Notes under the pieces: generated by a model
The model's database searches: none
What the model was told of the DNA's origin: nothing
The model's input: the letters and a program-made list of their open reading frames with translations, nothing else
Shown: positions 82-23,817 of the stretch, piece by piece
Layout of the letters: the number at the start of each line of letters is the position of its first letter
Numbering within the stretch: the stretch's first letter is position 1
Made by a program: the position numbers and the translations under genes
Source of the DNA: Thermoanaerobacterium aotearoense
GTDB lineage: Bacteria; Bacillota; Thermoanaerobacteria; Thermoanaerobacterales; Thermoanaerobacteraceae
NCBI RefSeq assembly: GCF_009905255.1
Contig: NZ_CP047602.1
Span: forward strand, 2,405,501 to 2,469,500
Direction of reading: 5' to 3'
DNA: 64,000 nt

Positions 82-642
82 TTATGGTGATGAAGCAATA
101 TAACTTATACACCAGCCACCATATAAAGGCGACTTAGAAACTGTAATAAATCTGGTGAAGTACCCTTCCTCAGGAAATTTTTTAATATCATTTGATTTTT
201 GCATATAATAAACGCAGTAAAGCTTAGAATGTTTTTCTACACTTTCACTACCATTCTTTTTCATCGTATCTGGATATACTTCTATTGATTTGATGTCAAT
301 TCTCTTTATATTTTTCAAATATTCTATATGTTCATTATACACATAACTGATATCTTCAGATGATTTATTTGCTGCATTATTTAAAAAATTGGAGGCACAA
401 ACAACGGCGAGATTATAATTCTTATCATTTATGCTATTATAATAGATATTTATTATTTCTTCCGGAGACGCATTTGAAATTTTAATTTTATCTTCCTTAG
501 TCAGCATATTGAAATACTTTTGCGCTATTGAATTATTTCCCTTTTCTTTAATAACGCTGTTATTGCTTTTAGATGAACATCCGACCACGATAAAGGCAAA
601 AAATATCAAAAAATATAAAACAGTTCTTTTAAAGAATACCAC
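82..642 (-). CDS. Hypothetical lipoprotein
   Basis: A 186-residue protein with a type II signal peptide: a basic N-terminus, a hydrophobic stretch and a lipobox ending VVGC with the cysteine at about residue 22. It should be anchored to the outer face of the membrane. The start is GTG, with GGAGG nine bases upstream. The mature part begins with a low-complexity Ser/Asn/Lys linker; a segment near residues 58-90 (SPEEIINIYYNSINDKNY) resembles the first helices of NTF2-like or DUF4829-type domains, which is a weak fold guess. It is preceded by one copy of the 105-bp repeated leader and followed by another probable exported-protein gene. I do not recognise a specific function. Confidence 0.75.
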   Translation of the reverse strand: MVFFKRTVLYFLIFFAFIVVGCSSKSNNSVIKEKGNNSIAQKYFNMLTKEDKIKISNASPEEIINIYYNSINDKNYNLAVVCASNFLNNAANKSSEDISYVYNEHIEYLKNIKRIDIKSIEVYPDTMKKNGSESVEKHSKLYCVYYMQKSNDIKKFPEEGYFTRFITVSKSPLYGGWCISYIASSP

Positions 643-747
643 TACTGATCACCTCCATTTCCCGTATTTCCCCTTCTACATATATAGAAGCTAAATTTTT
701 CTAAAAATATTCCACATCATAAAAATTATTTTTATCATTTTCAAATG

Positions 748-852
748 TTATACTCTTAACCTCCCATGCCTCACCTCTATTATAAAATTAAAAATTATAA
801 ATTTTATTAATTATTCCTTAATTTTCTATTACAATCTTGTAACATAAAAAAA
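748..852 (-). repeat. 105-bp repeated leader, copy 1
   Basis: This block matches 2383-2487 over 105 bases with two mismatches by eye. In transcription direction it starts with the T-run of an upstream terminator, passes through an AT-rich stretch with TATAAT-like sequence, and ends with GAGGTGAGGC, then a three-codon frame ATG GGA GGT TAA. It ends about 105 bases upstream of the GTG start of the 82-642 lipoprotein gene, so it probably carries that gene's promoter and 5' leader. Confidence 0.8.
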
Positions 853-867
853 CATGGCAAATGCCAC
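846..867 (-). terminator. Rho-independent terminator after the 887-1222 gene
   Basis: In the minus sense, GTGGCA and TGCCAT form a short stem followed by seven Ts, 20 bases after the stop codon. The stem is short (five to six pairs), so efficiency is uncertain. Confidence 0.5.
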
Positions 868-11112: not shown

Positions 11113-11223
11113 AAAAAAACCGCACACTGATGCGGTCTTTTGCCGCATTCCCTTCGTAGGCATTAACCTAATCAGGTTCTAGGGGTTTGGCATCTGCCAT
11201 CTCAGCTAAAAGCACCCCCAGCG
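11113..11223 (-). promoter_or_regulatory. TPP riboswitch with intrinsic terminator
   Basis: In the minus sense the aptamer (about 11223-11148) has the conserved blocks GGGGGTGC, GCTGAGA, ACCCCTAGAACCTGAT, TTAATGCC and GAAGGGAA of the Thi-box. It is followed by two mutually exclusive hairpins that share CCGCA: an anti-terminator pairing ATGCGG with CCGCAT, and a terminator pairing ACCGCA with TGCGGT ahead of seven Ts (11113-11136). This is the usual transcription-attenuation design, repressing thiT when TPP is bound. Confidence 0.95.
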
Positions 11224-11264
11224 GACATAGTCTTTTGATTAATTTATACTATATTATAATGAAA

Positions 11265-21637: not shown

Positions 21638-22573
21638 TTAATCTCTTAATTTTCTACCTGTAAGCGTCAGAAACACCGTTTCTAAATCAGGCGTCTGTGT
21701 CTCAATGTTTTTGATAGCTATGCCATCAGACGTAAAGTAGTGAATTATCTTGTCAAGGTTGCTAACATCCCTATAGCTTACGATTTTTACCGTATTTTCA
21801 TCTATATCAATGCTTTTTACTCCGTTAATAGCTTTAAGTTTGTTTTCATCTATATTCGCCACTGAAGTGACAGTTATCATCACCGTATTCGCATCTGTAA
21901 TGATTGATTTAAGTTCTTCTTTAGTGCCCTCGGCAATTATCTTTCCATGATCAATTATGGAGATTTTCGTGCATACGGCTTCAACTTCCTCCATGTAATG
22001 GCTTGTGTATATTACAGTGCTTCCCATCTCATTTAGCTTTTTCACAGATTCTAAAATATGATTTCTTGATTGAGGATCTATGCCGACTGTAGGTTCGTCC
22101 AATATTATTATCTTCGGCTTATGCGCTATCGCACATGCTATATTAAGTCGCCTTTTCATTCCTCCCGAAAATTTATTTGCCAGCCAATTTGCTTTGTCTT
22201 GTAGACCTACGAATTCCAACGCCATGTCAACACTTTCTTTAAGTTCCCTGCCTTTAAGTCCGTAAAGACTTGCAAAAAAGCTTACATTTTCGTATGCGGA
22301 CAGTTCTCCATAGATAGCAATATCCTGTGGCACAACGCCAATATTCATTTTAGCGAAATCAGGCTCTCTTTTTATGTCCCTCTCCATCACATAGACTTTT
22401 CCGCTGTCCATCTTCAAAAGCCCGCATATTATATTTATAGCTGTACTTTTACCGGCACCATTTGGACCTAAAAAGCCGTAAATCTCTCCTTCTTCAATTT
22501 CAAGATTTACATTGTCAAGTGCCACTAAGTCCCCAAATCTTTTGGTCAATCTTTCAAATTTCACAGCTTTCAT
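21638..22573 (-). CDS. ABC transporter ATP-binding protein (ABC-2 exporter)
   Basis: A protein of about 311 residues with Walker A GPNGAGKS (residues 36-43), a Q-loop (VPQDIAIYGELS), the ABC signature KFSGGMKRRLN, Walker B IIILDEPTVGIDP and the switch histidine in YTSHYMEEVE. The C-terminal 90 residues form the regulatory extension typical of CcmA/DrrA-type exporters. It energises the two permeases encoded downstream. ATG 22573 has AAGGAG seven bases upstream, while ATG 22579 lies too close. It is the first gene of the exporter operon. Confidence 0.95.
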   Translation of the reverse strand: MKAVKFERLTKRFGDLVALDNVNLEIEEGEIYGFLGPNGAGKSTAINIICGLLKMDSGKVYVMERDIKREPDFAKMNIGVVPQDIAIYGELSAYENVSFFASLYGLKGRELKESVDMALEFVGLQDKANWLANKFSGGMKRRLNIACAIAHKPKIIILDEPTVGIDPQSRNHILESVKKLNEMGSTVIYTSHYMEEVEAVCTKISIIDHGKIIAEGTKEELKSIITDANTVMITVTSVANIDENKLKAINGVKSIDIDENTVKIVSYRDVSNLDKIIHYFTSDGIAIKNIETQTPDLETVFLTLTGRKLRD

Positions 22574-22641
22574 AAACATTCTCCTTTATTTGAATCTTAC
22601 GTTTAAATCATATAACAAAAATTGATCTTTATTAAGTACAA

Positions 22642-22672: not shown

Positions 22673-23160
22673 AAAAAAAGAGACGGCGATAACCGTCTCC
22701 ATGATTATATATAAAAAGGCTCGCAATGATCTTCGCTTCAGCCTATATAAATCTTTGCACACCTGTATTAAATCAAACCTTATGACTTAATACAAGCATC
22801 TCAAAACCTATATAGACCTTTGCTCGACCATTATAAATACCTTAGAAACCTAATATAATCTCTCGACTATATTAGACCTCCAACCTAAGTACAACATTAA
22901 GCTATACATCTGGCCTGCGGAACTTATAATGATCTTAGCTCGACTATAATACATCTCTTTTAACCTTATATTAATCTCTATGACTAATATAAAGCCTTAC
23001 AAGACATATTACAGTCTGCCCGCCGACTGATATTGGACCATTAGATCCAATATCAATCTTTGGCCGATCATCTAAGAACTTTCGTCCTTAGATGATCTTG
23101 GCTCAACCATTGCGAACCTTACGATATTATATTGTCCCGATTACAACATAATATACTTAA
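22673..23160 (-). ncRNA. Internally repetitive multi-hairpin structured RNA ending in an intrinsic terminator
   Basis: This gene-free stretch folds on the minus strand into a series of stems. In 5' to 3' order: hairpin A (23154-23124, 12 pairs); the 5' strand of a 13-pair long-range helix (23120-23108) that pairs with 22728-22716; hairpin B (23097-23066, 14 pairs, GAAA tetraloop); C (23055-23028, 10 pairs); D (22994-22964, 13 pairs); E (22876-22849, 12 pairs, GAGA tetraloop); F (22796-22762, 13 pairs); at least two imperfect stems between these; and a terminator (22699-22673) with GAGACGG/CCGTCTC and seven Ts. D, E and F share a terminal GTC...GAT closing module. GNRA loops and the T-run fix the strand. 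It may be a separate RNA or a long 3' extension of the 23176 gene, whose stop is just upstream. Not RNase P, tmRNA, SRP, 6S or a known riboswitch as far as I can see. Confidence 0.75.
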
Positions 23161-23175
23161 AAGCATGTGGTAAAT

Positions 23176-23817
23176 TTAGGAATTTTTATAATTCAAAGCG
23201 ATTACTTCTTTTCTGCCTTCTAAATAATTTTTGTCAATTTCGATTTCATTGGATTGAATCTTTTGTCCGCCTGTCATCTTCAAGAAATTATCCTCTGTTT
23301 CAATTGGAAAATCAACGTTGCTTGTCCTATAGTGCATCGCAATGGTCAACTTTGGCTTAAGCTGTTCAACTACTTTTACCGCTTGCCTGTCATCAATCGT
23401 GTAATACCCGCCAATCGGCACCATCAATACATCTATATCTCCTATGTCTTTTATCATATCGTCTGTAAGTATATGTCCAAGATCTCCTGCATGGCACACC
23501 TTTATGCCATCAACTTCGATCACGAATATAATGTTTTTGCCCCTTTTAGCCCCATGCTCGTCATCGTGAAACACGCTTACTCCTTTTATATGAACACCTT
23601 TCACATCGTGCTCACCAGGAGTATTTACGATCTTATAATCTCCTTTTACGGCTTTAAAGTAATTGTGGTCAAAATGAGAATGGGATGATGTCACAATATC
23701 GGCTTCTGTTTCAGGCAGCGGGTATCCTACAGTCTTATCAAACGGATCTGTCACTACGCTTGTGCCATTTTCTGACACTATTTTAAAGCAGGAATGTCCA
23801 AAATACCTTATTTTCAC
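23176..23817 (-). CDS. Metallo-beta-lactamase-fold metal-dependent hydrolase (UPF0173/UlaG-like)
   Basis: A 213-residue protein with the metal-binding motif SHSHFDHN (His46, His48, Asp50, His51), further ligands in HAGDLGH and the C-terminal AMHYRT. The start MKIRYFGHSCFKI is typical of the small UlaG/UPF0173 branch, cytoplasmic hydrolases with mostly unknown substrates. The ATG has AGGAGG at good spacing. An extended -10 promoter lies 20-30 bases upstream of the start. The structured RNA region begins within 16 bases of its stop codon, so the two may be one transcript. Confidence 0.9.
   Translation of the reverse strand: MKIRYFGHSCFKIVSENGTSVVTDPFDKTVGYPLPETEADIVTSSHSHFDHNYFKAVKGDYKIVNTPGEHDVKGVHIKGVSVFHDDEHGAKRGKNIIFVIEVDGIKVCHAGDLGHILTDDMIKDIGDIDVLMVPIGGYYTIDDRQAVKVVEQLKPKLTIAMHYRTSNVDFPIETEDNFLKMTGGQKIQSNEIEIDKNYLEGRKEVIALNYKNS

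Follow-up and report, generated by a model that had tools for sequence, protein, structure and literature searches.

Positions 22673-23160 of the minus strand, in the 64,000-nucleotide stretch of Thermoanaerobacterium aotearoense DNA analyzed here (the window), lie between an ORF for an MBL-fold-like hydrolase and an ORF for an ABC-transporter ATPase, and are occupied by the gene of a previously undescribed, stand-alone non-coding RNA (ncRNA) of about 400 nt that is found in endospore-forming Bacillota. The gene and its parts are listed in Table 1. The RNA proper extends from approximately 23122 to 22716, with a transcription start predicted at about 23122-23120, and is followed by an intrinsic terminator, the seven Ts of which had already been pointed out in a preliminary description of the region and are evident from the sequence and the fold. 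In the sister genus, a U run (CCTTACTTTTTT) directly follows the closing helix P1 on its 3' side, making P1 itself the terminator stem. No ORF of at least 50 amino acids was found on the element in the ORF list, and stop-free runs in the homologues are about as long as those in shuffled sequences. Given that the ORFs are not above chance expectation, a protein-coding reading was discarded, in agreement with the earlier claim that no coding frame with a ribosome site is present.

Table 1. Features of the ncRNA locus and its flanks (window coordinates).
Feature	Position	Strand	Basis
Upstream neighbour, MBL-fold-like hydrolase ORF; not kept as neighbour outside the family	23176..23817	-	ORF list
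-35 element AGTATAT, consensus tGHATAw	23151..23157	-	EM motif, 70 non-redundant homologues
-10 element GGGACAATATAAT, consensus nGGnnAnnnTAAT, 12-nt spacer from the -35 block	23126..23138	-	EM motif, 70 homologues
Whole ncRNA gene	22673..23122	-	Promoter footprint, conserved closed domain, terminator hairpin and T run
P1, 5' strand, closing helix of 16 bp	23105..23120	-	Pairs with 22716-22731
Arm B, 14-bp hairpin, GAAA loop	23066..23097	-	Covariation in 11/14 pairs
Arm C, 15-bp hairpin, linkers GGCCAAA and GGCGGGCA on either side	23025..23058	-	Covariation in 13/15 pairs
Arm D, 16 bp, internal loop, 15 bp; 75 nt	22942..23016	-	Double changes in 29/31 pairs
Arm E, 13-bp basal helix, three-way junction, GAGA-capped branch	22826..22934	-	Double changes in 13/13 basal pairs
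Arm F, 16 bp, 3x3 internal loop, 17 bp	22740..22818	-	Double changes in 29/32 pairs
P1, 3' strand	22716..22731	-	Pairs with 23120-23105
Intrinsic terminator, GGAGACGG TTATCG CCGTCTC and 7 T	22673..22700	-	Sequence and fold
Downstream neighbour, ABC-transporter ATPase ORF; not kept as neighbour outside the family	21638..22579	-	ORF list

The predicted folding energy of the minus strand of 22673-23160 is -214.2 kcal/mol, compared to -111.7 +/- 5.7 kcal/mol for 100 dinucleotide shuffles (z = -18.1), whereas the plus strand yields z = -10.0; this asymmetry, which arises via G-U pairs, favours an RNA made from the minus strand. The minus-strand fold is a single closed domain in which P1 surrounds the arms B, C, D, E and F. 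The multi-hairpin RNA in a closed domain that had been proposed from the sequence is therefore real and is more strongly supported than claimed, both by this energy difference and by compensatory changes in every main helix, but its dimensions had to be revised. The closing helix does enclose arms B to F and consists of 16 rather than 13 bp. Likewise, the five hairpins, which had been given as 10-14 pairs, are real and belong to longer arms (B, 14 bp; C, 15; D, 16 and 15; F, 16 and 17), except that in arm E a 13-bp helix carries a three-way junction with the conserved sequences CCGCAGG and TTCTAAGG. The supposed 12-pair 5' hairpin (approximately 23124-23155) turned out to be an inverted repeat within the promoter, outside the conserved RNA, and was rejected as a part of it. 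The promoter type, the spread across the phylum and the in-register wobbles described below had not been recognized in the preliminary description.

In a blastn search of 61 relatives, each of the nine genomes of the genus had a copy, as did sister genera and distant lineages of the phylum, and the homologues examined adopt the same fold. Using R1, a calibrated covariance model that covers P1, B and C, we detected the RNA in 143 of the 398 sampled genomes of the phylum, representing 105 of 266 genera, mostly with E values of 1e-10 to 1e-30 and mostly as one copy per genome. The matches listed from a DNA pattern scan of named genomes included Thermoanaerobacterium, Carboxydocella, Pelotomaculum, relatives of Desulfotomaculum, Desulfosporosinus, Propionispora, Lucifera, Petroclostridium and some Clostridium. 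R1 confirmed all but three of the 80 listed pattern loci; the loci in Parendozoicomonas, Acidobacteria and Treponema, for which the model gave no confirmation, are chance pattern matches. A metagenome-assembled genome titled Desulfovibrio also carries the RNA (L148), and its contig is probably mis-binned because the downstream ORF resembles that of a Bacillota metagenome-assembled genome (L149).

Several individual loci depart from the common form. Tandem or nearby copies occur at L174 (690-1640), L159 (220 and 2207), L104 (1615 and 4219), L092 and G048 C41, which suggests an effect of dosage; at L174, each copy read has its own promoter-like box and terminator. A divergent variant (L023 and L029, in G048) has an arm E that is an unbranched 74-nt double rod, like arm F, along with other linkers. 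Genome G013 (C11 and C6; L020, L028) contains one full copy and, apart from it, a stretch of 99 bases that matches the D/E part and is probably a decayed second copy.

Compensatory changes are abundant in relatives. Among 81 distinct sequences of the B/C region, changes on both sides were observed in 27 of 32 pairs, with 557 double-change cells against a shuffled mean of 122, and 95.8% of the cells were paired, compared to 73.6% in the shuffled control and 29-43% after sliding by 1-3 columns; in the same set, 98.4% of the cells of arm B and 97.5% of those of arm C were paired. Because this alignment was fitted to the R1 model, we additionally performed ungapped tests on arms of modal length. 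In these tests, the paired fraction was 99.1% for P1, 97.3% for B, 93.7% for C, 91.7% for D, 95.3% for the basal helix of E and 93.7% for F, as opposed to 25-50% for slid arms, and double changes were found in most pairs of every helix, including 10 of the 13 pairs tested in P1. The counts for arms D, basal E and F in Table 1 come from 21, 44 and 35 homologues, respectively. The arm limits were set by energy folds, which biases the paired counts towards pairing; the double changes and pair types exceed the shuffles independently. Three short linker helices are weakly supported (for example GCC/GGC, 75% paired).

The RNA matches no Rfam family; the preliminary description had likewise recognized none of RNase P, tmRNA, SRP, 6S, OLE, ROOL, GOLLD or a riboswitch in it. 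A search of 22673-23160 with Rfam 15 (4227 models, including OLE, ROOL, GOLLD, raiA and 6S) gave no match at the gathering score, and only chance-level matches at E values up to 10. Across 20 diverse homologue loci, the element gave no match either; the only RNA genes found there were tRNAs, an RNase P and an OLE RNA that is separate from the element. The sole Rfam match in the window is a TPP riboswitch (RF00059, 76 bits) at 11131-11229 (-). We found no published description of this RNA in the literature searched, the coverage of which is partial, such that an earlier description is possible.

We then considered the genomic context. Comparison by blastp of 348 neighbour ORFs from about 95 loci produced 260 clusters, the largest of which consists of nine generic ABC ATPases, and no conserved neighbour gene was found in this set. 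A riboswitch or another cis-regulatory leader was accordingly dropped, as the element holds no constant position upstream of related genes. The large size, the ornate fold and the occasional tandem copies (L174, L159, L104) could suggest an RNA like ROOL or GOLLD, mobile or carried by phages. However, no match to the RNA was detected in 50,697 phage and 72,556 plasmid records or, with the pattern, in viral contigs, no ROOL or GOLLD score was obtained with Rfam, and the same ABC-transporter gene lies 3' of the RNA in Thermoanaerobacterium and in the sister genus (L024). A mobile element is thus highly improbable, and an origin from phages or plasmids was dropped. The differing neighbours in different lineages, together with the absence from phages, plasmids and viral contigs, mark this as a stand-alone ncRNA gene: it has a promoter and a terminator of its own, its helices covary, and both an ORF and a fixed neighbour are lacking.

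The promoter provides a clue to when this gene would be used. Just upstream of P1, the 70 non-redundant copies share tGHATAw, a gap of 12 or 13 nt and nGGnnAnnnTAat, with a few copies scoring weakly; expressed otherwise, GHATA-N14/15-GGNNANNNTA is present in nearly every copy. The ATA of the -35 element is conserved at 97, 98 and 89%, and within the -10 element the GG is conserved at 93 and 83%, followed by A at 98%, T at 98% and A at 97%. In nearly all 70 copies, P1 starts 1-6 nt beyond the -10 element. The log-likelihood of the motif obtained by EM was +268 for the real upstream sequences, compared to about -230 to -300 for shuffled ones. When the motif was trained on 59 upstream sequences from outside the family of T. 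aotearoense, position 23157 (-) ranked first in the entire 64-kb window, with a score of 12.0, the next being 8.8. The conserved -35/-10 pattern is that of sigma-F and sigma-G promoters. Applied to 30 promoters of small acid-soluble spore protein (SASP) genes, the motif derived from all 70 RNA copies gave a median score of 6.5 against -0.5 for shuffles (p = 2.8e-15), and two SASP genes of the same genome have GAATA-N17-CAAA where the RNA gene has GTATA-N17-CAAT, with equal spacing. By its motif, the promoter is of the forespore sigma-F/sigma-G type, and transcription of the ncRNA in the forespore appears very probable. The conservation of GG in the -10 element argues for sigma-F or dual use; in Clostridium difficile, the consensus resembles the B. 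subtilis one, and sigma-F promoters have a conserved G upstream of the -10 element (PMC3789822).

The -10 element of the T. aotearoense copy also contains TATAAT, so that some transcription by sigma-A is possible in this species. This hexamer, along with the existence of spore formers that have no copy, could be taken to indicate a large housekeeping RNA or ribonucleoprotein (RNP) that is not specific to sporulation and has a promoter that merely resembles a forespore one. We regard this as improbable because the letters conserved in the 70 copies are the forespore ones (GHATA and GGNNANNNTA), with fixed spacing, because the motif recognizes SASP promoters, and because no RNA-bearing genome without SASP genes was found.

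Indeed, among the 398 sampled genomes, the RNA is confined to those with spore genes. SASP genes (PF00269) were identified in 345 of the 398, and all 143 RNA-bearing genomes are among these (Fisher p = 1.1e-11, a value inflated by shared ancestry). None of the 53 SASP-negative genomes, 52 of which were individually identified, has the RNA; the association rests on these 53 negatives and is partly phylogenetic. The gene for SpoIVA is present in 140 of the 143 RNA-bearing genomes, the exceptions being G112 and the incomplete assemblies G265 and G311. The converse does not hold: about 200 SASP-positive genomes have no detectable copy, so the RNA is not universally required for sporulation. Seven genomes of one class and genus (G024-G030, g7) have SASP and SpoIVA genes with no RNA detected, possibly owing to its loss or to a diverged form.

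Some copies lie close to sporulation genes. The RNA is located about 1 kb from spoIVA in two families (G348 C45, G080 C6, G388 C27 and G327 C1), and at three loci (L047, L098 and L176) one neighbour gene resembles SpoVT/AbrB. Such proximity is suggestive of a possible linkage to sporulation genes. At L090 (G348 C45; coordinates 241-866 (-) and 1946 onward (+)), about 1.1 kb separates this RNA from an OLE RNA, and spoIVA is found on its other flank.

Within the fold, the geometry of the arms is strikingly regular. Exactly five arms were present in 89 of 101 energy folds; arm F measured 74 nt in 66 and arm D 74-76 nt in 57. The plan of arm F in homologues is 16 bp, a 3x3 loop that usually opens with a G-A mismatch, another 16 bp and a tetraloop; the GNRA loops noted earlier are real, this tetraloop being GNRA in 64 of the 66 homologues with a 74-nt F arm. 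At pairs 3, 12, 22, 24 and 33, the fraction of G.U or U.G is 0.73-0.91 in arm F, compared to 0.20 at other pairs, and 0.65-0.96 in arm D, compared to 0.16. The pairs next to these wobbles are free to vary; in arm D, the wobbles at pairs 12, 22, 24 and 33 are conserved. Arms B and C share this register of wobbles. A distance of 9-11 layers, about one turn of an A-form helix, separates the main positions (1-3, 12, 22-24 and 33). We infer that, turn after turn, the arms expose the same side to a partner, be it a protein or another helix.

The linkers are conserved as well (GAGCCAA, GGCCAAA, GGCGGGCA, GAGCTAA and GAGCAAA). Single-stranded stretches such as GGCCAAAG, GGCGGGCAGA and GAGCNAAG could serve a trans-acting forespore RNA that regulates mRNAs by base-pairing, and sporulation sRNAs are known (PMC9147052). 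However, the conserved unpaired stretches are short (7-9 nt) and adjoin the multihelix junction, whereas the molecule is mostly helix, constrained in structure rather than in sequence and far larger than a seed would require, making such a regulator rather unlikely. The rival that we rate next after a scaffold, with the base-pairing regulator and the non-sporulation RNP being less likely, is a forespore protein sponge, the arms of which would be repeated sites that titrate a regulator or an enzyme, as CsrB does CsrA or as 6S RNA binds the polymerase, and so alter forespore gene expression. This would fit the wobbles that several arms share in register, the occurrence of GAGCNAAG at three junctions, the weak match of R1 to a second site within the same RNA, and the stand-alone gene with its own promoter. 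Sponges, however, usually tolerate a varying number of sites, whereas here the number of arms and the length of arm F are nearly fixed across many genera, and the closure by P1 is conserved; a sponge is therefore possible but on the whole unlikely.

Overall, the explanation that we favour, with some reservation, is that of a forespore-made ncRNA that probably serves spore formation as a rigid scaffold or particle. Under this model, the forespore RNA polymerase, with sigma-F and perhaps also sigma-G, would transcribe the gene during sporulation, and the transcript of about 400 nt would fold into the P1-closed domain with five arms of fixed length, namely a branched arm, a pair of double rods with about 35 stacked layers and two single rods of 15-16 bp. 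The conserved linkers would fix the junction and the GNRA loop would cap arm F, with the G.U wobbles in register between arms. Each arm could then expose the same side to a protein, or to other helices, whether of its own molecule or of a neighbouring one. Inside the forespore, this might build a particle, either RNP or RNA, that serves spore formation or the dormant spore core. Taken by itself, the idea that the RNA serves the forespore or the spore core as a rigid scaffold or particle is a tentative hypothesis drawn from geometry alone. Still more speculative is an ancient structural RNA of endospores that would be made in the forespore and form a regular particle or lattice of equal-length rods through wobble contacts spaced by one turn, alone or with a repeated protein.

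By the logic of its expression, the nearest known RNA is CsfG, a Bacillus forespore sRNA that depends on sigma-F and sigma-G and that likewise has a gene of its own under a forespore promoter. It is a simple RNA with a length of about 200 nt. The csfG gene lies beside ylbG; in eight ylbG loci of Bacilli-like genomes R1 found no match at E values up to 10, the linker motif was absent from the seven searched for it, and the eight genomes do not appear among the R1 matches. Homology to CsfG was dropped on these grounds. CsfG is conserved in endospore formers according to Marchais et al. (2011), as relayed in PMC9147052.

By build, the nearest known RNAs are OLE, ROOL and GOLLD. OLE RNA is similarly large and ornate, and is not known to have a forespore promoter; the RNA described here matches it in neither sequence nor structure, and the two are separate genes at L090. 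OLE (RF01071) is a large ornate ncRNA of Gram-positive anaerobes and extremophiles that forms an RNP or a dimer (PMC12265935, PMC12286853), and ROOL and GOLLD form homo-oligomeric cages (PMC12286853). Many long helices in a fixed architecture are common to these two and to the present RNA, which however is chromosomal, about 400 nt long and scores in neither family, whereas ROOL and GOLLD are about 650 to over 800 nt, phage- or prophage-borne and often near tRNAs. Loss of raiA RNA, a structured RNA of Clostridia, impairs sporulation (Soares et al. 2024, as summarized in PMC12286853); our RNA has no Rfam match to it and no conserved neighbouring gene. With CsrB/RsmZ-type sponges and 6S RNA it shares an array of repeated structural sites, but it lacks a GGA-loop array, its arms are fixed in number and length, and it has no Rfam match. 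Because R1 and the linkers gave no match at the ylbG loci, no Rfam family scores and an association with phages is absent, the RNA represents a new class rather than a member of CsfG, OLE, ROOL or GOLLD.

Large ornate ncRNAs are rare in bacteria, and the functions of most are unknown. About one in three sampled genomes of the phylum carries the RNA described here, which nevertheless belongs to no Rfam family. From its promoter follows a testable place and time of action, the forespore. The regular arm lengths and contact points make it a good target for determination of the three-dimensional structure. The findings suggest that sporulation in clostridial and related lineages involves an RNA that the Bacillus subtilis model does not cover, and this RNA can probably be counted as a new component of bacterial endospores; should the architectural reading be true, no architectural RNA of a dormant cell type would have been known before it.
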